DNA of 64,000 nucleotides, taken from contig NZ_PDJD01000001.1 in NCBI RefSeq assembly GCF_002563925.1, forward strand, positions 1,184,973-1,248,972. The letters are read 5' to 3'. How positions within the stretch are numbered: the stretch's first letter is position 1; each line of letters opens with the position of its first letter. Source of the DNA: Serinibacter salmoneus. Lineage in GTDB: Bacteria > Actinomycetota > Actinomycetes > Actinomycetales > Beutenbergiaceae. Shown here in pieces: positions 44,996 through 58,152 of the stretch. The notes below the pieces were generated by a model that worked only from the letters and a program-made list of their open reading frames with translations, ran no database searches and was not told the origin of the DNA. The position numbers and the translations under genes are program-made.

Positions 44996-45562
44996 GTGCG
45001 TACCCGGTCCAATCCCGATGATCTCGCCACCGCCATCCGGCAGGCGGGGTACTACCCCGAACTCGTCGGGCAGGTCATCGACCTCGCCCTCGCGGGTGAG
45101 GACGTGCTCGGCCATCTCATCCAGCCGGAGACCACGTTCGACGAGGCCGAGGTCAAGCGCCACCTGACGGCGCTGGTGCTGACACCCTCGCGCCTGGTGG
45201 TGGTCCACGTGGACGATCACGCGGTCGACGGCGCCGCCAGCGCGGTCGCCAGCACCGAGTCGGTCCCGCTGCGCGAGGTGCGTTCGGTGATGCTCACCCA
45301 AGGGTTCGCTGACCCGGCCGCTCGCGGACCCCGTGCCGCAACCGATGTCACGATCGCTCTGGGATGGGGCGCGGTCAAGCGACTGGACCTCGAGCCCGCC
45401 ACCTGCGGCGACCCACAGTGCGAGGCGGACCACGGCTACACCGGGACGGCCTCACCGGACGACCTGGTCATCCGGGTCTCGGGGCTGGCCGAGGGGCAGG
45501 CCGCGCTCGATGCGGCCATTCGCTTCGCCGGGGTCCTCTCGGCGGCCACGGCGGGACGGTGA
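44996..45562 (+). CDS. DUF5998 protein
   Basis: This 188-residue cytosolic protein belongs to DUF5998, found almost only in actinobacteria. Visible segments are an N-terminal helix AIRQAGYYPELVGQVIDLAL, a helix beginning ETTFDEAEVKRHLTALVLTP, VVHVDDHAVDGAASAVASTE and a two-Cys/one-His patch CGDPQCEADH. It has no recognised enzymatic motif. Its stop overlaps the start of the phosphodiesterase gene by 4 bp (GTGA). Conserved association with the Pat-type gene and the phosphodiesterase suggests a shared process. Confidence 0.85.
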   Translation: MRTRSNPDDLATAIRQAGYYPELVGQVIDLALAGEDVLGHLIQPETTFDEAEVKRHLTALVLTPSRLVVVHVDDHAVDGAASAVASTESVPLREVRSVMLTQGFADPAARGPRAATDVTIALGWGAVKRLDLEPATCGDPQCEADHGYTGTASPDDLVIRVSGLAEGQAALDAAIRFAGVLSAATAGR

Positions 45563-46710
45563 CGCCGCCCGCGGGTCTGCTCCACGCCGTCGGGCACCCG
45601 CCGCTGGCGGGGGTGCTGCCCGATGTCGCCGCCGCGCTCGGTCACCCCATCGCGGGGCGAGCCACCGCCTCACTCGACCTGCCGCGGGCCGAGCGTGTGG
45701 TCGTGGTGCTGGTGGACGGCCTGGGCTGGGAGGCATTGTCGGCTCGCACCGGGCACGCGCCGACCCTGCGCGGCCTGATCCGCGGGGGCACACCGCTCGC
45801 GGCGGGGTACCCCAGTACGACCGCAGCCTCCCTGGCCTCCTTCGGAACGGGACTGACGCCGGGACAGACCGGCCTCCTGGGCTACACGGTGCGCGACCCC
45901 CAGCACACCCGGCCGACCGATCTGGTCAACCTCGTCTCCTGGACCACGAGCGCGGGGCGCCCCCTCGACCCCCAGGCCTGGCAGCCCCACCAGAGCGTGT
46001 TCGAGCACCTGACCGCGCGGGGTGTACCCGTCACCAGCACCGGCCCCGGTCGGTTCGCCGGGTCGGGGCTGACCCTCGCCGCCCTGCGCGGGGGAGAGTT
46101 CCGCGGCTCGAACACCCCGCAGGACCGGGTCGACGCGATCGCGGGAGCGATCCCCCGCGGTGGTCTCGGCTACCTCTACTGGGGTGAGGTCGACAAGGTC
46201 GGACACCATCACGGCTGGACCTCCCACGAGTGGAGCGAGGCCCTGGGCGACGTGGACGCCGCGATCGCGCGACTGATGCGGCGACTGCCCTCGGGAACCC
46301 TGGTGATCATCACGGCCGACCACGGGATGGTGGACGTGACGCGCACCCTGGACGTCGCGGCAATCCCCGCCCTCGCGGGAAGCAGCGTGGTGGTGGCGGG
46401 GGAGCCGCGCGCCTGCCACGTGCACCTGCGCGAGGGTGTGGACCTGGCGACCGCGGCGGCGACCTGGCGTGAGGTGCTCGGCGAGGACGCCTGGGTGCTC
46501 ACGCGCACCGACGCGATCGAGCACGGACTGTTCGGCGTCGTCGAGGAACGCAACCGTCCCCTCATCGGCGACCTCGTGGTGGCCATGACGGGCACCGTGG
46601 CCCTGGCGGACTCCCGTACCCAGACCGCCGCGTCACTTGCGCTGATCGGCATGCACGGGTCACTGACCCCGGCCGAGGTGTACGTCCCCGGCATCGTCGA
46701 GGTCGTCTAG
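45559..46710 (+). CDS. Alkaline phosphatase superfamily nucleotide pyrophosphatase/phosphodiesterase
   Basis: This 383-residue metal hydrolase has the NPP-like fold. Metal and nucleophile motifs are VVVLVDGLGWE (Asp), YPSTTAASLASFGTG (nucleophilic Thr), GEVDKVGHHHGW (Asp and His), IITADHGMVDV (Asp-His) and a final His in GMHGSLTPAE. There is no obvious signal peptide, so it is probably cytosolic; the substrate is unknown. It is coupled to DUF5998 by a GTGA overlap. The stop lies 11 bp from the convergent polytopic membrane protein gene of the glycan locus. Confidence 0.9.
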   Translation: MTPPAGLLHAVGHPPLAGVLPDVAAALGHPIAGRATASLDLPRAERVVVVLVDGLGWEALSARTGHAPTLRGLIRGGTPLAAGYPSTTAASLASFGTGLTPGQTGLLGYTVRDPQHTRPTDLVNLVSWTTSAGRPLDPQAWQPHQSVFEHLTARGVPVTSTGPGRFAGSGLTLAALRGGEFRGSNTPQDRVDAIAGAIPRGGLGYLYWGEVDKVGHHHGWTSHEWSEALGDVDAAIARLMRRLPSGTLVIITADHGMVDVTRTLDVAAIPALAGSSVVVAGEPRACHVHLREGVDLATAAATWREVLGEDAWVLTRTDAIEHGLFGVVEERNRPLIGDLVVAMTGTVALADSRTQTAASLALIGMHGSLTPAEVYVPGIVEVV

Positions 46711-46721
46711 CGAGCAACGCC

Positions 46722-48932
46722 TCACCAGGCGTACTCGCTTGCCTCCCACGCCGCCGTGTCGAACCGGAACAGCACGGTCCCGTCGCGTTCGAACTCCGCC
46801 TCCCACCAGGGGGAGTCGACGAACGCCTGACGCACCTGCGCGAAGTCGGCGGCGGACTGGACGGCGTACAGTTCCCCGAACGCCTGCTGGGTGGGCGACC
46901 AGAGCGCGAACGCCGGCTGCGCCGGATCGGCGCCGCCCATGTACCCCACGAGCGACTCGGTCAACGACTGGGCGAGTTCGTCCGGGTCCTCACCGGCCGC
47001 GACCGGCAGCCCCAGGATGTCCCGGGAGACCACGTCCGGAGCGAGCGACATCCGTGCGGGAATCGTGGGCAGGTTCCCCGTGCCCAACTCCAGCAGGTAC
47101 CGCGGTGCGTCCGGGTCCGGGCTGGAGGAATGGAAGATCCTCATCGCCTCCAGGTCCGCCGGGCGCTCCTGATGGATGACGTCCAGGGCGTGGCCGGCCA
47201 GCAGGCTGGTGGCGAGCAGCACGACGGCGACTCCCGCCTGGTAGGCCCGGCGCAGCATCCGGGGGCGCACGGCCACGGCCGCGAGCGCCGCCAGCCAGGG
47301 GATGGCGAACAGGGCAGCGCGGAAGATGCCCTCCTGCCCGTACGGGTTCACCGCAACGAGCACGAGTCCGACCGCCGGCACCAGGGCACAGGCCCAGGCG
47401 CGGGCCTCCGCCAGGGTGGCCCGGCCGAGGACCAGCCGACGCACGACTGCGCGGCGCGAGACCCGGGTCAGCGACCACAGCGCTAGGAAGCAGATCAGCA
47501 GGATTCCCACCACGAGGGCGATGACCGAGGTGGTCACCGCGATGTGGCGCGTGAGGGTGTCATCGGCCACGGTCTGAGGCGGGCGGAAGTTCTCCAGGTC
47601 GCCGAGCGCCGAGACGTACAGGAAGGACCGCACCGCATCCGCGTGCAGCGCCGTCCACGCCAGGGCCGGGACCAGCACGGTCAGCGGGATCCACCATCGC
47701 ACCAGACGCAGGAGGGCGAGGACCACGAGGCCACCGGCGACCATGTACGGGCTGAGCTGGTGGGTGACCGTGATCGCGCATCCGAACACGACCAGGAGGA
47801 CGACCCCGCCCCGACCCGGCCGCCGGCGCAGGGCGAGCGCGAAGATCGCCACCGCCAGGAGCGTCCCGAGCGACTGCGGGGAGAAGTAGTCCGAACCGAT
47901 CGCATCGGCCAGGGTGGTGAAGGCGGCAGCCCACCAGGCGGCGGTGCCGCTCAGGCCGAGGCCCGAGAAGAACCAGCGCAGCAGCGGTAGGCGCAGCAGC
48001 GTGACGGCCGCGATCCACCACCGTGCGGTGTCCCCGACCTCGGCACCGGCGAGATCACTCACCCAGGCGCTCGCCGCGAACATCCCGGGCCAGTCGTTGT
48101 AGACCTGGACGGAGGAGACGGGGGCACCGGTCTCGATGATCTGCTCCGCCAGGTCCACGTGCTTGTTCGTCGACTGTCCCCACGGGCCGGGGTAGGCAAG
48201 TGTCGGGGACAGGCTCAGCACCGCCACGAGCGCACCGACCGCCACGGCCAGCGGCCACTCCCGGGCGCCGGTGGCCAGCGGCAACGCGGTGGTGCACAGC
48301 AGGAGTCCGGCAATCCATCCCCACCCGAGTGCGAGCGGCAGGCCCCACACCGGAGGGTCGATGATCGTGGCTCCGGCCGCGAGCGCGAGGGCGAGCACAC
48401 CCCCGGCTGCGCACAGGGCCATCGCGATGGGCACGGGGGCTCCCTTGACCCCGACCCCACCCCAGCCGGTGCGCCGCGGGAGCCAGTCCCGGGCGGGCAG
48501 GCGTCGGCTCCAGGAGGTGCGCACTCGCGTCAGGACGATCCCGTGGGCCACCATCCCGGCGACGGTGAGCAACGCGAGCAGCCACGGCAACCAGAGGGTG
48601 AGGGTCATGGCGGTGCCACCCAGGGTCAGCAGCGACAGCGCCGACCCGGTCGCGAGCGCCAGGCGGGTGTGCAGGCGCAGCGTGGGGGCGAACTGCCATG
48701 GCGCAAGGCCCACGGTCGTGAGCGCGGCCGCCCACCAGGTCAGGAGCGCGAGCGTAGCGGGCAGGACCCCGGTCAGGGCGATCAGCGCGAGCGCACCCGC
48801 GAGCAGCGATGCCACGGCCAGCACGTACCGCCAGCGATCGGTGACGACCGCGCGTCGAACCGAGAACCCGGCCGGCGGCGTACGCGGTGGCGGTGCCGCG
48901 GAGTGCCGCAGCGGGCGTCCGAGCGTCGTCAT
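46722..48932 (-). CDS. Large polytopic membrane protein of the glycan locus
   Basis: This 736-residue protein has a short basic N-terminus and then some 14 hydrophobic segments to about residue 580, followed by a soluble C-terminal domain of about 150 residues. It resembles large bacterial GT-C-like or polymerase-like proteins, but I cannot identify the family. The loop containing VYNDWPGMFAASAWVSDLAG is the best candidate for an acidic catalytic motif. Its ATG overlaps the upstream GT2 gene (ATGA), so the pair is coupled. A role in glycan polymerisation or lipid-linked sugar transfer is inferred from context. Confidence 0.7.
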   Translation of the reverse strand: MTTLGRPLRHSAAPPPRTPPAGFSVRRAVVTDRWRYVLAVASLLAGALALIALTGVLPATLALLTWWAAALTTVGLAPWQFAPTLRLHTRLALATGSALSLLTLGGTAMTLTLWLPWLLALLTVAGMVAHGIVLTRVRTSWSRRLPARDWLPRRTGWGGVGVKGAPVPIAMALCAAGGVLALALAAGATIIDPPVWGLPLALGWGWIAGLLLCTTALPLATGAREWPLAVAVGALVAVLSLSPTLAYPGPWGQSTNKHVDLAEQIIETGAPVSSVQVYNDWPGMFAASAWVSDLAGAEVGDTARWWIAAVTLLRLPLLRWFFSGLGLSGTAAWWAAAFTTLADAIGSDYFSPQSLGTLLAVAIFALALRRRPGRGGVVLLVVFGCAITVTHQLSPYMVAGGLVVLALLRLVRWWIPLTVLVPALAWTALHADAVRSFLYVSALGDLENFRPPQTVADDTLTRHIAVTTSVIALVVGILLICFLALWSLTRVSRRAVVRRLVLGRATLAEARAWACALVPAVGLVLVAVNPYGQEGIFRAALFAIPWLAALAAVAVRPRMLRRAYQAGVAVVLLATSLLAGHALDVIHQERPADLEAMRIFHSSSPDPDAPRYLLELGTGNLPTIPARMSLAPDVVSRDILGLPVAAGEDPDELAQSLTESLVGYMGGADPAQPAFALWSPTQQAFGELYAVQSAADFAQVRQAFVDSPWWEAEFERDGTVLFRFDTAAWEASEYAW

Positions 48933-50290
48933 GCGTCGGCTGGGCGTGACGCGCGCGCCCGGCGGCGTGCGCGCAGGTAGTCCCACGGTCCCCGCAGCGC
49001 ACCGGCGAGCTCGGCGCGCCGCACCCCCGGGGGTGGGGCGATCCCCGCGCTCATCCGTTCCCGGGTGGTGCGGTCGATCTGCCGCATCCGCCACAGACCC
49101 GGACCGATCGCGCGCAGCAGCGCTGCCCTCGACCCAGGGGAGAGCAGAGTGCCCGTGAGGTAGGCGGTGAGACCGGAGCCGTACCCGCGCAACTGGCGCA
49201 GCAGCGCGGCGTCGTCCGCGCGGTGGTGGTGCCAGACGAGCGCGGACGGCTCGTACACGATCCGCTCCCCGGCGAGCAGGATGCGGACGAACATGTCCAG
49301 GTCCTCCCCGCCGCGGGTCCGGGTTCCCGCTCCGAGCGCCTCGTCGAACCCGCCGAGTTCCTGTACCAGGCGGGTGCGCACCGCCATGTTCGCGCCGGTG
49401 CCGAAGATGCCGGCGGAGAACGGGTAGAGGGCCCCCGCTCGCCTGTTCTGCGCGAGATCGAAGGTCTCGGGTTCGCAGCGCGCGGACCAGGAGGGGGATC
49501 GTGCGTCGAAGTAGGCCTCGGCCGGGGAGTCGACCGAGGCGGTGGCGACCAGGCCGGTGACGCACCCGGCACCCGTGGCGGCGGCCTGCTGCAGTGCGCT
49601 CGCCCAGCCGGAGTCCACGCTCACGTCGTCGTCGGTGAAGGCGAGTACCTCGCCACTCGCGTGCGCGAGCGCCGCGTTGCGGGCGCTGGAGAGCCCCGGG
49701 CGGTCCTCGCGGTGGTACCGCAACCGCGGGTCGATGGCCTGCAACGAGGTCACCAGGTCGGCCGTGCGCTCGTCGGAGGGCGCGTTGTCGATCACCAGGA
49801 TCTCGACCTCCGGATCGGGGGTCGCCATCACGTGCCGAAGGCAGGACTCCAGGATGTCGGCACGATCGCGGGTGCACACGGCGATCGTGAGGGAGGGGAG
49901 CGGCCCGCCGGTCCATCGCCGGGGGCACAGCGGCCCCGCGGGGGCGATCACCTGGTCCGCGCCGGGGGACGCGCGGCGTCCCTCCAGGCGCAGGTGGGTG
50001 GCGATGCGTGGGGCAAACGTGCGGGTCGCTTCCTGGCGCACGAGCGCCGCCGTCACCTCGTGGGGGGCGAGCGCGAACTCGAGGTAGCCGAGGACCTCGC
50101 CGTGCAGGCTCACCAGGACGCGACTGCGGGTGTGGTCCCGGCGCGCGGGCAGCCAGTGGGCAGCATCGTCGGCGAGATCCATGCCGGCGCAGGCGATGCC
50201 GGTGGCAGCGGGCTCGTCGGGTCGTGTGTCCCGGATCGCCTCGCGCCCCGCCTCGCGCTCGGTGTCGGTCGGCGCGCCGGTCTCCGTCAT
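48929..50290 (-). CDS. Glycosyltransferase family 2 with N-terminal extension
   Basis: This 453-residue protein has an N-terminal domain of about 135 residues (unknown function) before the GT-A fold. The catalytic part (about 135-380) has SLTIAVCTRDRADILESC, EVLAFTDDDVSVDSGW (the DDD metal motif), GTGANMAVRT and TRGGEDLDMFVRI (ED catalytic base), with WHHHRAD at the C-terminal end. It should transfer an activated sugar to a glycan acceptor on the cytoplasmic side. ATG 50290 has a GGGGGGA ribosome binding site. It is coupled to the polytopic protein gene (ATGA) and divergent from the GT4 gene. Confidence 0.9.
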   Translation of the reverse strand: MTETGAPTDTEREAGREAIRDTRPDEPAATGIACAGMDLADDAAHWLPARRDHTRSRVLVSLHGEVLGYLEFALAPHEVTAALVRQEATRTFAPRIATHLRLEGRRASPGADQVIAPAGPLCPRRWTGGPLPSLTIAVCTRDRADILESCLRHVMATPDPEVEILVIDNAPSDERTADLVTSLQAIDPRLRYHREDRPGLSSARNAALAHASGEVLAFTDDDVSVDSGWASALQQAAATGAGCVTGLVATASVDSPAEAYFDARSPSWSARCEPETFDLAQNRRAGALYPFSAGIFGTGANMAVRTRLVQELGGFDEALGAGTRTRGGEDLDMFVRILLAGERIVYEPSALVWHHHRADDAALLRQLRGYGSGLTAYLTGTLLSPGSRAALLRAIGPGLWRMRQIDRTTRERMSAGIAPPPGVRRAELAGALRGPWDYLRARRRARASRPADA

Positions 50291-50383
50291 GGTCCCCCCT
50301 CGTACCGGGCGCCCCCGCGCCCGCCCCGGCCCCGGTGGACACGCCACCATGGATCGCCCCCGCGATCGGCCTGCGTGTGACTG

Positions 50384-50389
50384 TACCGT
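50384..50389 (+). promoter_or_regulatory. -10 box for the GT4 gene (leaderless)
   Basis: TACCGT, 7 nt before the ATG at 50397. Confidence 0.55.
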
Positions 50390-50396
50390 CTGCTCG

Positions 50397-51551
50397 ATGC
50401 GCATGTTGTACCTGACCGAGGCCGCACCGAGCCGGGACCCGCAGTTCTCCGACGGCAGCGCGATGATCCCCTACGAGGTGATCCGGGCGCTGCCGCGTCA
50501 CGTGGAGGTCACGCTGGTGTCCTTCCGAGGGGGCGCCGCCGTGCCACCGGAGATCCGTGAGCGCTGTGCGCACGTGGACGAGATCGACCTGCCCCGCTCG
50601 CGTCCGGCCGACCTCGCGGGCCTCCTGCGCGGGGTGTACCCGGCGGACTCGCGGCGCGGCAGTGCGCGTGTGCGCAGGATGACGCAGGACCTGATCCGCA
50701 CGCACGACGCGACCTTGGTGCACGGCCCGCATCTCGCGGGCGCGCTGCGCGGCCTGCCGCCGACCGCTGCGCCCGTGGCCTTCCAGACCGTCGATCCATG
50801 GTCCCTGCGCACCGCGATGGAGGCGCATCTGACGAGCGGTCCTCGCGCCTGGTACCGGCGCTACAGCGCGCTGGTGCGGCATCGCCTGGAGCGTGCGCTG
50901 CCCGCGCAGGTCCGGCTGCTCACGGTGGGTCAGGCGGATGCCGAGTCGTGGTCCCGCGCCCTGGGACGGACAGTGCGAGCCGTGCCGAACGGCGTGGACA
51001 CCGCGGCACTGACGGGCCCAGCACCCCACGTCCCGCCGGATGCCCCGCCCCGCGGCGCCCCCGATGTGTGCTTCGTGGGCAGCCTCGACTACGCGCCGAA
51101 CGTCGAGTCCGCCCGCCGGCTCGTCCACCGCGTGGCACCCCTGCTGTGGGAACAGCGCCCCGACCTGAGCATCGTGGTGGCGGGTCGTTCGCCCGTGCCA
51201 CAGGTGCTGGAGCTCGCCTCTGATCGGGTCACCGTGCAAGCCAATGTGCCTGACCTTGCCGCCCTGGTGCGTTCCGCCCGTGTCGCCGTGTTCCCCGATC
51301 TTCACGGGCTGGGCAAGCGCAACTCCGTCAGTGAGGCGCTCGCGGTGGGCACCCCGGTGGTCGCAACCGCCGTCGCGGCACGGGAACAGGGTGAACACCC
51401 GCTGCTGACTCGCGCTGAGAGCGATCGCGACCTCGCCGGGGCCGTCCTGGCGGCGTGGGAGCGCCCACCGGCCGCGCAGCCGTCCCAGCACGGGGTCGCG
51501 ATGCGGACCTGGGCGGACGCGGCCGCGGACTACCTGGCCGCGTTGTCCTGA
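50397..51551 (+). CDS. Glycosyltransferase family 4
   Basis: This 384-residue GT-B enzyme has the acceptor half first (MRMLYLTEAAPSRDPQFSDG) and then the donor half: VPNGVDTAAL, DVCFVGSLDYAPNVESARRL and the GT4 donor motif RNSVSEALAVGTPVVAT (usually E-x7-E). It likely adds a sugar from a nucleotide-sugar to the lipid-linked glycan. The ATG has a TACCGT box 7 nt upstream (leaderless), back to back with the GT2 gene. Its last 22 bp overlap the end of the convergent four-domain protein gene. Confidence 0.92.
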   Translation: MRMLYLTEAAPSRDPQFSDGSAMIPYEVIRALPRHVEVTLVSFRGGAAVPPEIRERCAHVDEIDLPRSRPADLAGLLRGVYPADSRRGSARVRRMTQDLIRTHDATLVHGPHLAGALRGLPPTAAPVAFQTVDPWSLRTAMEAHLTSGPRAWYRRYSALVRHRLERALPAQVRLLTVGQADAESWSRALGRTVRAVPNGVDTAALTGPAPHVPPDAPPRGAPDVCFVGSLDYAPNVESARRLVHRVAPLLWEQRPDLSIVVAGRSPVPQVLELASDRVTVQANVPDLAALVRSARVAVFPDLHGLGKRNSVSEALAVGTPVVATAVAAREQGEHPLLTRAESDRDLAGAVLAAWERPPAAQPSQHGVAMRTWADAAADYLAALS

Positions 51552-54304
51552 GCCGGATCGAGGTCGGTGCCGGTCATCAGCACCACGCTCGCACGCCACA
51601 GCGCCACGTCCCGGTCCACGGCCACGGCTGCCTCGGCACCCCGTGCGGGGAGCCGTTCGGCCAGGCTGGCGGCGCACCGAGCCCAGGTGAGCATCACGAC
51701 CTCCTCGGCCCGCCGAGGATCGGCGCCGCATGAGGTGAGATGGCCGCGTAGCGCGGACAGGCCGGCTCCCGACGGCGAGAACTCCCGACGCAGGAGAGCC
51801 ACCTGGTCCTGCGTGCGCCAGGCGCCCTCCAGGGCACAGGTGAGGTAGTGCCAGGCGTACACGAGGTCGCTCCCGGCGATGCCGGTGAGGTCGGCTCGTT
51901 CCCAGTCCAGCACGGTCAACCTCCCGCTCGCGGGTTCCACCAGGAGGTTCGGGTGCCCGAGGTCGCCGTGTTCGACCGCACCGGTCAGCAGTTCCGGGCG
52001 CATGGCCGCGTGTGTCGCGGCGGTGAGGGCGGTGAGCCAGGAGGGTTGTCCGCACCGCGCCGCGAGGTCGACCAGACCGCGCAGCGCCGCGGCCGGTTCG
52101 ACCGGGGGCGCCGGGAGGCGCCCCAGCCGCGCCACGAAGGCCAGCACCGCGCCGCGGGCACCCACCGGATCGGCACGCACGCGCTGCGGGGAGAGTTCCT
52201 CGCCCGCCAGGGCGGTGGTGACCATGGCGGGACGGCCACGATGGGCCCAGACCCCGAGCAGTTCCGGGACTCCCGAGAACCCCTGGTCACCGAGATGGGT
52301 CAGGACTCGGGACTCCCGGTCGATCCCCGCCGTGTCGCCGGGGTCGCGCGGCACCTTGACGGCGAGCGAGGGTCGCGCCCCTCGCCCGTGGTGGAGCAGG
52401 GCGATCAGGTGCCGCGACGTCTCGTAGCGCGGCGTGATGACGACCGCGCCGGCCGCCTGTGCGGCGTCGATCCGGTCGGCTGCCCGGGGGTCGGCGAGCA
52501 GACCCGCGAGCCAGGTGCGCGGAATCCCTCCCCGTGCCGACCAGAGGCTTCCCTGGGCCACCAGCACGGGCATCGCGCCGAGGCGTGCGGTCCCTCGCGC
52601 CGCGACGCCGACCAGCGCTCCCGCCGGGATCCCCGCCACGCGCCGCAGGGTCGAGTCGAGTGCGGGGGCGGAGTCCAGCGGCACCAGGCGGGCGGAGCGG
52701 TGCAGGCTCGGCGCATGCCAGGTGACCCCGGACACCGTCCATCCGGCGGCACGGATCCGGCTCCGCAGGCGCGGGAGCACTCCCAGACCCGGCAGGCCCG
52801 AGCCTAGCGTGAGCATCGCGCCGTCCGGCGTCAGCGCCCGCGCAGCGTGGGAGAGCTCCCGACGGTGCGGATTGTGGGTCACCACCAGGTGCAGGGTGGC
52901 GGTCGGTGCCCCGGCGAGCGGGCGGACCTGGGCGCCCGCCTCCTGCAGCCCCCGGACCCAGCCCGCAGGCAGGGGCACGGACCCGATCCCGACCTGTGCC
53001 CCCGGCTGCAACCACGGGCCGTCGCCGAGCATCACGGCGTCGACCGCCTGGCGACCGTGCAGGGGCCCTGGGGGGTCCCCCACCAGGGTGCGCCACACGA
53101 TCCTGGTCGCGCTGGCGAGCGTCTGCCCGGGTGTTGCGGTCGCATCGAGAAGGTGGGCGCGCGGGTGCTCCTCGGCGATGCGCCGGTACTCCTGCCGCCA
53201 CTCCTCCAGGATCTGGGGGCTGTGCTCCCGTTTGCGCTGGTACATCACGCTCCCGGGGGCATCCAGGACGAGGATCAGGTCCACCGGTGGTGCCACCGCG
53301 TGCGCCACCCAGCGCGTGATGCGCCCCCCGACGGAGGAGTCGTCCGAGCTGAGCCGGGTGTCCAGAGCCAGCCGGTCGAGCAGCACCACCTCCCCGCGCA
53401 ACCGGTGCACAGCGACACTGAGAGCGGTGGCGCTGACCCGCGTCAGCGCGAGCCCCAGCCGCGCCCCCGGGACCCGCTCGAGGAGAGCGTCCCACGCGTG
53501 CGGCTTCCAGAGACCGAGGTGACGGTAGTGGGTCGTGAGGGGGAGCGAGGCGGCGAGGCCGTCCAACAGGGTCGTCTTGCCGGCGCCGTCCGGGCCGAGG
53601 ACACCGATCGCGACGCCCCGGGGGCGACCAGGCACCCGCACCGGGATCCTGCGGCCGAGGCGAGCGGTGACGGCCCGGGTCACCGCCGGCCCGGGAACGC
53701 TGCGACGCCACCTGGCGGCGAGCAGACGTGACAGCCGTGCGCTCGCGTCCTCGTCCCCGAGTACCCGGGTCAGCCGGTAGGCGCAGCCCTCGCCGGCGAT
53801 CGCGTCCAGGCGGGCGGCCAGCGGGGAGTCCAGGGGCCGGTGCCGGAGCGCAGCGAGCGCCTCGGCTCGCCGGTGAGCGGGGACGCCACCCTTGTCCAGG
53901 ACGAGGTGCAGCAGCAGCAGCAGGGCCTCATCGCTCGGGTCGGGGGAGGGGATGCCCTCGCGCACCACCCCTCGTGCCAACACCTGCGGCGCCCACGGAC
54001 TCACCAGGTCCTGGTAGCGACCGAAGGCGAGTTCGTCCACCACGTCGAGCCCGGTCCACCCGTCCTGGCCGAAGGCGAAGTGGAAGCGGTGGGATCCGTG
54101 CCCGTGCGCGAGCACCCGCACCAGCCCGGACTGAGCCAGGGACTCCTGCGCGATCGCGCGCCAGTCGCGAGAGACGAGGACGTCGATGTCCCGGTCCGGC
54201 CGGGCGAGGGAGCGCCGACCGCGCAACAGCAGCCACGGCACCCCGGCCCGATCAAGCGCGTCGAAGGCTGCGCGCGCCTGCGGATGAACGGATGGCATCG
54301 ACAC
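51530..54304 (-). CDS. Four-domain protein: nucleotidyltransferase-like, thymidylate kinase-like, methyltransferase-like and phosphotransferase-like
   Basis: This 924-residue protein starts with a nucleotidyltransferase-like domain (about 1-200; RDIDVLV at 38-44, LDVVD at 86-90, as in the NTP_transf_5 type). A thymidylate kinase-like P-loop domain follows (about 230-405; GPDGAGKTT at 237-245, LDRLALDTR near 309-317, lid RKREHSPQ). Residues about 415-590 look like a degraded SAM methyltransferase. The C-terminal domain (about 600-924) is aminoglycoside/choline kinase-like, with Lys650 (SLAVKVP), HGDLGHPN (779-786) and Asp800 in LDWERAD. No transmembrane helix is seen. GTG 54304 has an AGGGGGA site; ATG 54298 is an alternative. 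It probably modifies a glycan or its precursor. Confidence 0.8.
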   Translation of the reverse strand: MSMPSVHPQARAAFDALDRAGVPWLLLRGRRSLARPDRDIDVLVSRDWRAIAQESLAQSGLVRVLAHGHGSHRFHFAFGQDGWTGLDVVDELAFGRYQDLVSPWAPQVLARGVVREGIPSPDPSDEALLLLLHLVLDKGGVPAHRRAEALAALRHRPLDSPLAARLDAIAGEGCAYRLTRVLGDEDASARLSRLLAARWRRSVPGPAVTRAVTARLGRRIPVRVPGRPRGVAIGVLGPDGAGKTTLLDGLAASLPLTTHYRHLGLWKPHAWDALLERVPGARLGLALTRVSATALSVAVHRLRGEVVLLDRLALDTRLSSDDSSVGGRITRWVAHAVAPPVDLILVLDAPGSVMYQRKREHSPQILEEWRQEYRRIAEEHPRAHLLDATATPGQTLASATRIVWRTLVGDPPGPLHGRQAVDAVMLGDGPWLQPGAQVGIGSVPLPAGWVRGLQEAGAQVRPLAGAPTATLHLVVTHNPHRRELSHAARALTPDGAMLTLGSGLPGLGVLPRLRSRIRAAGWTVSGVTWHAPSLHRSARLVPLDSAPALDSTLRRVAGIPAGALVGVAARGTARLGAMPVLVAQGSLWSARGGIPRTWLAGLLADPRAADRIDAAQAAGAVVITPRYETSRHLIALLHHGRGARPSLAVKVPRDPGDTAGIDRESRVLTHLGDQGFSGVPELLGVWAHRGRPAMVTTALAGEELSPQRVRADPVGARGAVLAFVARLGRLPAPPVEPAAALRGLVDLAARCGQPSWLTALTAATHAAMRPELLTGAVEHGDLGHPNLLVEPASGRLTVLDWERADLTGIAGSDLVYAWHYLTCALEGAWRTQDQVALLRREFSPSGAGLSALRGHLTSCGADPRRAEEVVMLTWARCAASLAERLPARGAEAAVAVDRDVALWRASVVLMTGTDLDPAQDNAAR

Positions 54305-54439
54305 GTGGGTCCCCCTGGTTCCTCCCGCCATTGCCGTGCGGGAGATGCCACGCTAATCGACGGCGGGCGCCTCGTGGTGGCTCGCGTGTCCGCGCCTCCC
54401 GACCGCGGTCCGCCGTCGTCGCCACGCAACCGGGTCCGG

Positions 54440-54634: not shown

Positions 54635-54866
54635 CGGCTCGCCTGCCGGGAACGTGCGGCGTGAGCGCTGCGCCGGGGCCGGGAAACGGTGCCCGAGATC
54701 CCTGTCTCCTCCCACGACCCACGACGAAGGTGGTTTACCCCCTGCTGGTGACGATGTGGCATGGTGAACGCCGGGCGTCCTTCAGATGGCGCTGCGGTGT
54801 CCGCAGGGGGCGGGCGCGCTCGAGGCGATGTCGTGTCGTCCTCGGCGACTGGACACGGGGGGATCT

Positions 54867-55625
54867 ATGCCGACAAGGCCTGTGCAACCCACGATCAGCA
54901 TCGTGGTACCGACAAAGAACGAAGCGGCGAACCTGCGTGAGGTCCTGCCGAGGCTGCCTGCCGTCCACGAGGTGATCGTGGTCGATGGCGGCTCGGTGGA
55001 CGGCACGGTGCAGGCGGCGCGCGAGACGCTGCCCGGCGTCCGCATCGTGGAGCAAACGCGTCGCGGGAAGGGGAACGCGCTCGCCTGCGGCTTCGAGGTC
55101 GCCACGGGCGACGTCATCGTGATGTTCGACGCGGACGGCTCAGCGGATCCCGCGGAGATCCCCGTCTTCGTCGATGCGCTCACCCAGGGTGCGGACTTCG
55201 CCAAGGGCTCGCGGTTCGCGCCCGGCGGGGGCAGCGAGGACATCACACCGATCCGCCGCGCGGGTAACGCCGCGCTGCACGTCGTGGCCAACCTCGCGTT
55301 CCGGACCCGTTTCTCCGACCTGTGCTACGGCTACAACGCGTTCTGGCGGGACATGGTGCCGGTCCTCTCGCTGCCCGATACCCGAACGCCGGAACGCGCC
55401 GACGGTCAGATGCACTGGGGTGACGGATTCGAGATCGAGACAGTGATCAACTGCCGGATGGCCGCGGCCGACGTGCGGATCGTGGAGGTTCCCAGCGTGG
55501 AGCGCCTGCGCATCCACGGGGAGACGAACCTGCGCACCTTCGTGGACGGGTGGCGCGTGCTTCGGACCATCTTCTCGGAACGTTCCCGCGCAGCGGGGAT
55601 CGCCCGCGCCTCCGTCGCGGCGTGA
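54867..55625 (+). CDS. Dolichol-phosphate mannosyltransferase-like GT2
   Basis: This 252-residue GT-A glycosyltransferase resembles DPM1/polyprenyl-phosphate glycosyltransferases: TISIVVPTKNEAANLREVL, VVDGGSVDGT, GKGNALACGFEVATGD, FDADGSADP (metal-binding DxD) and GSRFAPGGGSED. There are no C-terminal membrane helices, so it is the soluble type. It may make polyprenyl-phosphate sugars or start a repeat unit on a lipid carrier. ATG 54867 is preceded by GGGGGGA. It is the first gene of a three-gene coupled operon (GTGA overlaps) with a second GT2 and the flippase. The 240 bp upstream contain no terminator that I can see. Confidence 0.9.
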   Translation: MPTRPVQPTISIVVPTKNEAANLREVLPRLPAVHEVIVVDGGSVDGTVQAARETLPGVRIVEQTRRGKGNALACGFEVATGDVIVMFDADGSADPAEIPVFVDALTQGADFAKGSRFAPGGGSEDITPIRRAGNAALHVVANLAFRTRFSDLCYGYNAFWRDMVPVLSLPDTRTPERADGQMHWGDGFEIETVINCRMAAADVRIVEVPSVERLRIHGETNLRTFVDGWRVLRTIFSERSRAAGIARASVAA

Positions 55626-56623
55626 GCGCGCATTCCGTCAGCCTCGTCGTGTGCGCCTACACCGGGCGCCGCTGGCGCGACCTGTGCGCTGGGATCGCCG
55701 CCGTGGCCGCAGGATCCGAGCCGCCCGAGGAGATCGTGGTGGTGATCGACCACAATGAGGGCCTTCGGGTCCGCGCCGCCGCCGAGCTCCCGGCTCACGC
55801 GCCCGGCGTGGCGGTGCGGGTGATGTCGAACACCAGACGGCAGGGTCTCTCCGGTGCCCGTAACACGGGGGTCGGCGCAGCACACGGCGAGATCGTGGCG
55901 TTCCTCGATGACGACGCCACGCCGCGACGCGACTGGCTCGAGCGCATGCTCGAGCCGTTCGTGGATCCACGCGTGGTCGCCGTGGGCGGGGCAGCGGAAC
56001 CCGTGTGGCCCGCGTCCGGCCGACCCGCCTGCCTCCCGACGCAGCCGGGGCAGTGGGGAGAACTCGACTGGGTCGTGGGGTGCAGCTACCGCGGCCTGCC
56101 GCGCACGCGCGCGCAGGTGCGCAACGTGATGGGGTGCGCGATGGCGATCCGCCGCGAGGCCATGGTCGCGGCCGGCGGATTCCACGAGGACCTCGGTCGC
56201 GTCGGACGCACCCCCTTGGGATGTGAGGAGACGGAACTGTCGATCCGACTGCGGCAACGTGATACCCCCGCCCGGGTCGTGCTGGTCCCGGAGGCCGTCG
56301 TGGACCACCGGGTCTCCGAGGACCGGGTCACCTGGCGTTACCTCGCCACCCGGGGGTGGGCCGAGGGAGTCTCCAAGTCCGCGGTGGCCGCGCTGGTCGG
56401 CCCGGGTGACGCTCTTGCCACCGAGTCCTCCTACCTCGCGGGGATCCTGCCGCGCGCGCTCCTGCGGGAACTCGGGTCAGGTCGCGCGGCCGGCGCGGTT
56501 GCCGTGCTGCTCGCCGTCGCCGCCACGGGCGCGGGCTATCTGCGCGGCAGTCTCGACACACTCGCACGCCGTCGGCGCCAGGTCGCACCCCCCGCGCAGC
56601 GTGAGGGGACGAGGACGGGGTGA
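55622..56623 (+). CDS. Glycosyltransferase family 2
   Basis: This 333-residue GT-A enzyme has SLVVCAYTGRRW at the N-terminus, QGLSGARNTGVGAAHGEIV, VAFLDDDATPRRDWLE (DDD metal motif), GCAMAIRR and GCEETELSIRLRQ (ED region). A hydrophobic region near residues 284-306 may anchor it at the membrane. It is coupled by GTGA overlaps to the DPM-like gene before it and to the flippase gene after it. The sugar is not readable from the sequence. Confidence 0.92.
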   Translation: MSAHSVSLVVCAYTGRRWRDLCAGIAAVAAGSEPPEEIVVVIDHNEGLRVRAAAELPAHAPGVAVRVMSNTRRQGLSGARNTGVGAAHGEIVAFLDDDATPRRDWLERMLEPFVDPRVVAVGGAAEPVWPASGRPACLPTQPGQWGELDWVVGCSYRGLPRTRAQVRNVMGCAMAIRREAMVAAGGFHEDLGRVGRTPLGCEETELSIRLRQRDTPARVVLVPEAVVDHRVSEDRVTWRYLATRGWAEGVSKSAVAALVGPGDALATESSYLAGILPRALLRELGSGRAAGAVAVLLAVAATGAGYLRGSLDTLARRRRQVAPPAQREGTRTG

Positions 56624-58152
56624 GTTCCGCGCCCGCCGAAGCGCAGACCCTGGCCCGCGCCGGTGCCTCCGGTGTGGCCTGGCAGAGCCTCGCGCAGGTG
56701 GTCTCCCGGGCGCTGACCCTGATCGCCACGATCGTGTTGGCGCGGGTGCTCAGCGTCGAGGAGTACGGTCTCGTCGCGGCAGCGCTCGTGGTCATCGGGT
56801 TCGTCGAGACGGTAGCCGATGCCGGCGTCGCCCAGGCCCTGGTGTACCTCCCGCGCCGGGCGGGTCTCGTCCGCGCCTCGTTCGCGATCTCCCTCGGCGC
56901 GGGCACGGTGCTCGCCGGTGTGGTGATGGCCGCGGCCCCGGCGGCCGCGCGAGTGTTCGGCCAGGCCGGGGTGGAGCCCCTCGTGCGAGCCCTCGGCGTG
57001 GTGGTCCTCCTGACGGCGCTCGCCGCAGTCCCGGATGCCCTCCTGCGGCGGGCGCTGGAGTTCCGGCGGCTCACGTACGCCGTGATGCTGCGCGGGGCGG
57101 CGAGCGCCGGCGTCACCCTGACGCTCCTCGCCCTGGGGTCGGGACCCTGGTCGCTGGTGTGGGGGACGGTTGCCGGCGCGGCGAGCTACCTGGTGTGCTG
57201 CTGGCTGCTCGCGCCACGCGGTGTCGCCAGGTCCCTGTGGGGCAGGGTCGACGCGACTGACATGCGCACGACCTTGCGCTTCGGTGCACCGGTGGCGGGA
57301 AATCAGTTCCTCTCCCGGGCCGCGTTCGACGTCGACTACCTCGTGGTCGGTGCCCTCCTGGGCAGCACGGCGCTCGGTGTGTACACCCTCGCCTTCCGGT
57401 TGCCGGAGATGGTGATCATCCAGGTGTGCTTCGTGATCGCGGGGGTGATGTACCCCCTCTACACCCGTGCCCGGGCCACGCCGCACCTGCTGGAGCGCGC
57501 CTGGGTGGTGAGCACGCAGGCTCAGGTCTTGTTCGGCCTGACGGCGGGGGTCGGTCTGGCGGTCATCGGTCAGGACCTGGTGCCGCTCGTCTTCGGGACC
57601 CAGTGGGCGAGCGCGGGTGATGTGCTCGTGGTCCTCGCCCTGTACGCCGGGGTGCGGGCGATGGCCAATGGGGCGAACGAGGTCTACAAGGCGCTCGGCC
57701 GGCCGATGATCTCCCTGTGGACCTCGATCGCGCGCCTGTGCGTCCTCATCCCTGCCCTGGTGCTGGGCACACAGTGGGGGGTGCTCGGGGTGGCGTTCGC
57801 GCACCTGGCGACCGAGTGCCTGTTCGTGGCGATCAAGCAGACGATCGCCTCCCGCCTGCTGCGACTACCGCCGGCCGCGGTGTGGTCGATGCTCGGCCCG
57901 GGCGTGCTCGGTGCGGTGGGCATCGCAGTCGTGGCCGGAATCGTGGCGCAGACACCACTCAGCGGGTGGGCGCTCGTCATCGTCACGGTGCTGGGTGGCC
58001 TCCTCGTCGCGCCGGGGCTTGTGCTGGTGTGCTACCCGGAGGTCGTGACGACCCTGGCGGCCGTGATGCCGGGGCGCGCGGGTGCCGTCGTCCTGCGATT
58101 GTGCCGCCCCTTCACCCGCACCTACGCGGCGCGACACTCACGAGGCTCCTGA
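56620..58152 (+). CDS. Wzx-like polysaccharide flippase (MOP superfamily)
   Basis: This 510-residue membrane protein has some 12-14 helices and the conserved starts of the oligosaccharide flippase family (GVAWQSLAQVVSRALTLIATIVLARVLSVEEYGLVA). Additional family sites are FGAPVAGNQFLSRAAFDVDYLVVGALLG and ALYAGVRAMANGANEVYKALGRP. It should flip the lipid-linked repeat unit outward. It is the last gene of the GT operon (GTG 56620 overlaps the preceding stop). Its partner polymerase is not obvious; the polytopic protein at 46722 is the best candidate. Confidence 0.93.
   Translation: MSSAPAEAQTLARAGASGVAWQSLAQVVSRALTLIATIVLARVLSVEEYGLVAAALVVIGFVETVADAGVAQALVYLPRRAGLVRASFAISLGAGTVLAGVVMAAAPAAARVFGQAGVEPLVRALGVVVLLTALAAVPDALLRRALEFRRLTYAVMLRGAASAGVTLTLLALGSGPWSLVWGTVAGAASYLVCCWLLAPRGVARSLWGRVDATDMRTTLRFGAPVAGNQFLSRAAFDVDYLVVGALLGSTALGVYTLAFRLPEMVIIQVCFVIAGVMYPLYTRARATPHLLERAWVVSTQAQVLFGLTAGVGLAVIGQDLVPLVFGTQWASAGDVLVVLALYAGVRAMANGANEVYKALGRPMISLWTSIARLCVLIPALVLGTQWGVLGVAFAHLATECLFVAIKQTIASRLLRLPPAAVWSMLGPGVLGAVGIAVVAGIVAQTPLSGWALVIVTVLGGLLVAPGLVLVCYPEVVTTLAAVMPGRAGAVVLRLCRPFTRTYAARHSRGS

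Follow-up and report, generated by a model that had tools for sequence, protein, structure and literature searches.

What might be the role of a bacterial protein that joins, in one chain, a nucleotidyltransferase-like (NT), a thymidylate-kinase-like (TK), a methyltransferase-like (MT), and an APH-type phosphotransferase domain? The question is raised by a gene in a 64,000-nucleotide stretch of the genome of Serinibacter salmoneus (NCBI RefSeq assembly GCF_002563925.1, contig NZ_PDJD01000001.1, positions 1,184,973 to 1,248,972), the whole of which is referred to here as the window. The best explanation of the observations reported below, all of them derived from comparison of sequences and predicted structures, is that the window protein unites in one chain the products of a gene set (NT-TK, MT-like, and APH) that is widespread, has no name, and accompanies Wzx-type polysaccharide assembly. 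This gene set recurs beside Wzx flippases in several phyla, and its fusions and overlapping genes link four enzyme families to one pathway, offering a handle on a group of genes that is otherwise uncharacterised.

One reading frame, four domains

The frame lies on the minus strand (51530..54331), a point on which the original prediction was silent, and is open without interruption over 933 codons from ATG 54331. The GTG at 54304 is the likelier start, giving 924 residues, because it is preceded by a purine-rich GGGGGA stretch; residue numbers here refer to the 933-residue version, in which the P-loop GPDGAGKTT occupies positions 246-254 (237-245 in the 924-residue version). The motifs from which the original prediction of a four-domain protein had been made (RDIDVLV, GPDGAGKTT, HGDLGHPN, and LDWERAD) are all found in the translated frame. 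At the three codon positions, the content of guanine plus cytosine (GC) follows an even, coding-like pattern throughout the frame, both linkers included (third-position GC 0.80-0.94 per 50 codons), with no visible sign of a frameshift or a chance join. The source genome is complete (3.27 Mb, a single contig) and carries the fused gene in a single copy. Frameshift and assembly artefact were rejected in view of this even coding signal and of the complete single-contig genome, and the frame break through sequencing error that the original prediction had named as a refuting outcome is not seen.

The APH region alone passes a Pfam cut-off (PF01636, 48.4 bits against a gathering score of 23.2, E 1.4e-12); the other three regions were assigned via relatives. 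Residues K659, E673, H788, D790, N795, and D809 are invariant in 13 homologues; the domain, with all catalytic residues kept, is an intact kinase of the APH type. The APH profile yields weak matches to choline kinases, and AmiN is not among the matches listed for it. Two functions were considered and rejected: aminoglycoside resistance, given that the APH(3') equivalog cut-off is missed (20.8 bits against 205), and phage defence, given that none of the PADLOC defence models is matched at E 0.01.

The P-loop, the DR motif, and the predicted nucleoside monophosphate kinase fold place the TK region in the thymidylate-kinase superfamily (PF02223 fold). Against solved thymidylate kinases, the profile built from the relatives aligns along the entire domain (E 6e-12, residues 236-404), three relatives (L018, L023, and L076; L numbers denote loci) pass the PF02223 cut-off themselves, and the model of the window domain aligns over 170 residues with Z 18.4 and a root-mean-square deviation of 3.4. 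The resemblance to thymidylate kinases thus extends to the P-loop, the DR motif, a LID-like region, and the fold, whereas the REPGGT-type segment that binds dTMP in dTMP kinases is lacking, with YMGLW standing in its place, and the score falls far short of the dTMP kinase equivalog TIGR00041 (15.9 bits for the window protein and 37.4 for the best relative, against 83.25). Synthesis of dTMP was rejected as a function on the grounds of this distance from the equivalog cut-off.

The NT domain appears to be a distant relative of NTP_transf_5 (PF14907). The Pfam match of the window region is sub-threshold (E 0.0027; 17.8-20.1 bits, below the gathering score of 31.2), and the same model is weakly matched by 10 of 14 relatives. 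The profile of the relatives does, however, match NTP_transf_5 members (hhalign 97.1%, E 6.5e-11, 127 columns, with the DxD motif aligned, where unrelated sets used as a control gave at most 0.8% probability). The carboxylates D48 and D50 (DxD) and D96 (LDVV), the expected metal ligands, are invariant in a five-sequence alignment; in a 14-sequence set, D50 is invariant, D48 can be replaced by E, and a few members have lost D96. The two families share the DxD motif, the third carboxylate, and action of the nucleotidyltransferase alongside a kinase; the window domain differs in falling below the Pfam cut-off and in being fused to a thymidylate-kinase fold. A second NTP_transf_5-like gene is found in the same genome (G000:C1:735677-736060; L120:3732-5222). 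Judged by eye, its C-terminus may be PqqD-like, and genes that, also by eye, resemble polysaccharide pyruvyl transferases lie a few kilobases away.

The MT-like region has no Pfam match in any close relative, and the DWRFLLP motif that marks the domain in relatives is missing from the window copy; nevertheless, the domain is homologous to the N-terminal portion of proteins from KSB1 that score above the Methyltransf_11 threshold (hhalign 97.1%, E 5.3e-11). The class I methyltransferase fold is assigned from the model of an Arthrobacter homologue (predicted local distance difference test, pLDDT, 79.5), the window copy having been modelled poorly. The 50 Foldseek matches listed for the Arthrobacter model are all class I methyltransferases or spermidine synthase (best E 1.7e-7, TM score only about 0.45), a Z score of 10.8 was obtained over 134 aligned residues, and CgnL (7pd7) matches at Z 10.4 over 145 aligned residues, level with many other methyltransferases. 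Modelling of the window protein was limited to residues 12-640 because several full-length multiple alignments put the MT domain in the wrong place, and in this model pLDDT is below 50 over model residues 523-629; the window region is also more divergent than its Arthrobacter counterpart. Motif I (GxGxG) for binding S-adenosylmethionine (SAM) is absent from the window region and its relatives, and the type shared by the window and Arthrobacter lacks, in the alignment and in the model, the block from strand 2 to strand 4 that completes the SAM site. With both the motif and the block missing, the domain is most likely a non-catalytic remnant. The expectation of a methyltransferase-like middle region with no readable SAM motif I was thus borne out, as was, through profile and structure comparisons that back each region, that of one protein with four regions of the families named; each region matches its own family, and the four do not fall into a single known fold family.

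A recurrent gene set and its one-chain forms

A direct scan of genome contigs with the single window protein gave no match, and an alignment of relatives used as the query recovered 19 loci. None of the relatives found is plasmid-borne. Relatives in Arthrobacter, Kineococcus, KSB1, Acidobacteriota, Acidimicrobiales, and other groups encode the modules side by side, in most cases in the order of the window protein. Many phyla have NT-TK as an established two-domain protein (Arthrobacter, Pseudarthrobacter, Kineococcus, Acidimicrobiales, KSB1, Acidobacteriota, Chloroflexi, and others), and MT-APH is likewise an established fusion in KSB1, Acidimicrobiales, and Acidobacteriota, so that the premise of the original prediction that these families normally occur as separate proteins does not hold here. 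At L076, three consecutive genes encode NT-TK, MT, and APH, in an order identical to that of the domains in the window protein. Elsewhere, the modules are partitioned differently: NT-TK-MT followed by APH (L007, L017, and L020); NT-TK followed by APH, with a separate NT-TK-MT (L016); NT-TK followed by MT-APH (L021); NT-TK, Wzx, and MT-APH (L018, L019, L023, and L078); and, at L083, NT-TK and APH genes separated by a single open reading frame (L083:3576-5957) in which a Wzx flippase is joined to an MT-like (DWRFLLP) domain. The start codon of APH and the stop codon before it overlap as NTGA in L007, L016, L017, and L020, as expected for coupled partners. Among the 24 loci other than the window with an NT-TK or TK core, an APH gene or domain lies within about 8 kb in 17 and a Wzx gene in 14, counts that have no background rate behind them and come from loci that are not all independent.

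Given that the same modules are conserved as neighbours, the order of domains in the window protein is not the product of a random fusion. Moreover, an 876-residue protein from a metagenome-assembled genome of Binataceae (L027:9767-12397) combines NT, TK, an unassigned middle region, and APH in one chain; its collinearity with the window protein extends over residues 61-854 (E 7e-23). By these alignments, the order in a single chain is seen again, at least in outline (NT-TK-x-APH), where the original prediction knew of no described enzyme with it, and the window protein brings established partners together. A search of the literature, thin on subscription journals, found no paper on the NT-TK core, on its tie to a degenerate MT and an APH, or on the one-chain form.

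It could be argued that the modules were merged by the loss of stop codons and that the resulting chain, a chance or decaying fusion, is no longer functional in the source strain. The gene is single-copy, is found in no other genome of the same family among 23 searched and in only a few of the same order, its MT region has diverged further than that of Arthrobacter, and an NT-TK copy that looks decayed does exist in the Arthrobacter locus L016. Against this stand the coding-like GC pattern over all 933 codons, the catalytic residues kept in NT, TK, and APH, and the collinear Binataceae chain, in the light of which we regard decay as improbable.

Two loci show further variation of the set. The Arthrobacter locus L016 includes a second NT-TK copy (L016:4144-5589) in which the P-loop lysine is replaced by arginine (GPEGAGRTT) and DR by HR; this copy looks decayed and directly precedes an intact APH. 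In KSB1 (L023:3951-9790), two MT-APH pairs and a third APH gene lie beside one NT-TK and one Wzx.

A possible route to phosphorylated lipid-linked glycans

Each module of the window protein is in or near a known family, and terminators that pair a methyltransferase with a kinase are already known. WbdD of Escherichia coli O9a (methyltransferase, residues 1-210; kinase, residues 211-459) phosphorylates the terminal mannose and then methylates that phosphate, and, like O7 ORF6, stops the chain via phosphate and methyl on the terminal sugar (PMC3482155). ORF6 of Klebsiella pneumoniae O7, in which kinase activity on the terminal sugar has been shown, likewise phosphorylates and then methylates that sugar, stopping the chain; its kinase is APH-like, and its methyltransferase is closest to CgnL (PMC11231755). 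The window protein resembles the N-terminal terminator of O7 ORF6 in having an MT fold followed by an APH-like (in O7 ORF6, AmiN) kinase in a polysaccharide locus, but carries NT and TK ahead of these domains, lacks a SAM motif, and lies near Wzx, whereas the SAM motif, a coiled coil, a carbohydrate-binding module, and an ABC-transporter pathway are peculiar to O7 ORF6. With WbdD, the window protein shares the order of methyltransferase and kinase in one chain and, in the proposal below, phosphate decoration of a glycan end; the kinase of the eukaryotic-protein-kinase type, the active methyltransferase, and the coiled-coil ruler are WbdD's. Of the hallmarks of this group, the MT fold followed by a kinase in one chain is present in the window protein, and the SAM-binding methyltransferase, for lack of the SAM motif, is not.

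Could the window protein nonetheless be an active terminator of this kind, with an MT domain that binds SAM in an unusual manner and methylates the phosphate made by APH? The MT-then-kinase order is that of WbdD and O7 ORF6 (PMC3482155, PMC11231755), and CgnL, the closest relative of the O7 ORF6 methyltransferase, is among the fold matches of the Arthrobacter MT model, tied with many others. Yet, the GxGxG motif and the strand 2 to strand 4 block are both missing, and the MT-APH profile gives no sequence match to WbdD, which makes methylation of the phosphate an improbable outcome.

PsmN, a nucleotidyltransferase that we take to be a member of the NTP_transf_5 family, is a functional analogue of the window NT domain. 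In a lasso-peptide cluster, PsmN adjoins a kinase that first phosphorylates a serine, and the nucleotidyltransferase homologue is needed for the addition of hexoses to the phosphoserine (review PMC9266682). FKRP is an NT-fold enzyme that transfers phospho-alditol to a glycan (PMC6965139), and TacF is a MOP flippase that reads a phospho-decoration (PMC13385700). LicD/FKRP-type phosphotransferases, like the window NT domain as we envisage it, move a phospho-group onto a glycan with an NT fold (PMC6965139); they belong to a different NT family, and the analogy extends to mechanism only.

On the strength of these precedents (WbdD, O7 ORF6, FKRP, TacF, and the lasso-peptide enzymes), phosphorylation of a lipid-linked glycan before flipping can be envisaged. 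We tentatively favour, at somewhat less than an even chance, a fused machine of the cytosol by which a lipid-linked glycan would be phosphorylated and subsequently derivatised, similar to but distinct from the WbdD and O7 ORF6 terminators. At the cytosolic face of the membrane, the APH domain would place a phosphate on a hydroxyl group of a sugar in the lipid-linked glycan, or else on a small precursor; the TK-like domain, the relatives of which phosphorylate a phosphate, might act on the phosphorylated intermediate; and the NT domain could transfer a nucleotidyl or phospho-X group to the phosphorylated glycan, with the MT remnant serving as a scaffold that keeps kinase and glycan positioned. 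The resulting phosphate-bearing decoration would terminate the chain or license it for flipping. The individual steps, the acceptor, and the order of the reactions are all proposed by analogy, and two phosphorylations and one nucleotidyl transfer by the fused protein, as originally suggested, are possible. If the proposal is right, phosphate-based chain capping, known from a few Gram-negative systems with ABC transporters, would be extended to actinobacterial Wzx-type pathways, and the thymidylate-kinase fold would gain a role in glycan metabolism.

The main rival of this proposal is precursor activation, which we consider possible, if rather doubtful. Here, APH would phosphorylate a free sugar or an alcohol, TK would make the pyrophosphate, and NT would produce an activated nucleotide donor for a neighbouring glycosyltransferase, so that the fusion would serve channelling rather than capping. 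The APH family includes small-molecule kinases, for instance, those of choline, to which the weak profile matches point; a nucleotidyltransferase with a kinase is the usual make-up of an activation pathway; and the two-domain NT-TK occurs with neither APH nor MT nearby in L008 and L024. Conversely, the nucleotidyltransferases of known sugar-1-phosphate activation are of the Rossmann type and not of the Pol-beta-like fold, and the tie to Wzx and to a pair of methyltransferase and kinase speaks for an assembled lipid-linked glycan.

Several observations weigh against the proposal of a glycan-modifying machine. Precursor activation fits the same facts as glycan capping. The NT, TK, and MT regions of the window protein, taken singly, are each below the Pfam cut-offs, and, for the putative Pol-beta nucleotidyltransferase fold of residues 1-200, which are modelled well in most blocks, the list of structure-search matches is filled by thymidylate kinases that match the TK domain. 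Furthermore, APH and Wzx genes are common in general, a caution for an 8-kb association that lacks a background rate, and the core is found with no APH or MT detected nearby in L008, L024, L028, L029, and L081, so that the partners are not obligatory.

A still broader scenario, in our estimate unlikely, is that of a widespread and so far undescribed cytosolic machinery that phospho-caps lipid-linked glycans. A TK fold and an NT would have been recruited to glycan modification, a dead MT would act as the scaffold, and the decoration would license flipping by Wzx, the window protein being the one-chain form of this machinery.

The polysaccharide locus around the fused gene

Around the fused gene lie genes for one glycosyltransferase of family 4 (GT4), three of family 2 (GT2), a Wzx flippase, and a large integral membrane protein, possibly a polymerase (Table 1). 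The GT4, GT2, and Wzx genes are syntenic with those of the Arthrobacter-type loci L007 and L016, and these gene assignments make the locus a polysaccharide cluster of the Wzx type that encodes four glycosyltransferases. The originally suggested link to glycans or lipid-linked intermediates thus stands in outline, given the flippase and the four glycosyltransferases around the gene. The NCBIfam matches of the glycosyltransferases are all below cut-off, so the glycan cannot be named.

Table 1. Features of the fused gene and its neighbours (window coordinates; residues of the 933-residue version)
Feature	Position	Strand	Remarks
Fused four-domain gene	51530..54304	minus	924 aa from GTG 54304 (933 aa from ATG 54331)
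NT-like domain, residues about 11-214	53690..54301	minus	D48, D50, D96 carboxylates
TK-like domain, residues about 231-420	53072..53641	minus	P-loop K252, D319-R320, EHSP region
Truncated MT-like domain, residues about 415-614	52490..53089	minus	No SAM motif I
APH-type phosphotransferase domain, residues about 605-923	51563..52519	minus	K659, E673, H788, D790, N795, D809
GT4, convergent neighbour	50397..51551	plus	Homologue near gene set in L007, L014, L016
GT2 (within ORF 48929..50404)	48929..49900	minus	Homologous genes in L007, L016
Integral membrane protein, no Pfam match	46722..48980	minus	Weak homologue beside set in L016
Polyprenyl-phosphate sugar transferase-like GT2	54786..55625	plus	
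GT2	55634..56623	plus	Closest NCBIfam: glucosyl-dolichyl-phosphate glucuronosyltransferase AglG, below cut-off
Wzx/MOP flippase	56620..58152	plus	Polysacc_synt_3

The fused gene and the GT4 gene are convergent, their tails overlapping by 22 bases (window 51530-51551). Glycoside hydrolase family 16 genes adjoin the set at L007:12396-13226 and L016:3223-4104, and none was seen among the window neighbours scanned. A type I phosphodiesterase / nucleotide pyrophosphatase gene (window 45364-46710, Pfam E 1.6e-36) adjoins the polysaccharide genes of the window.

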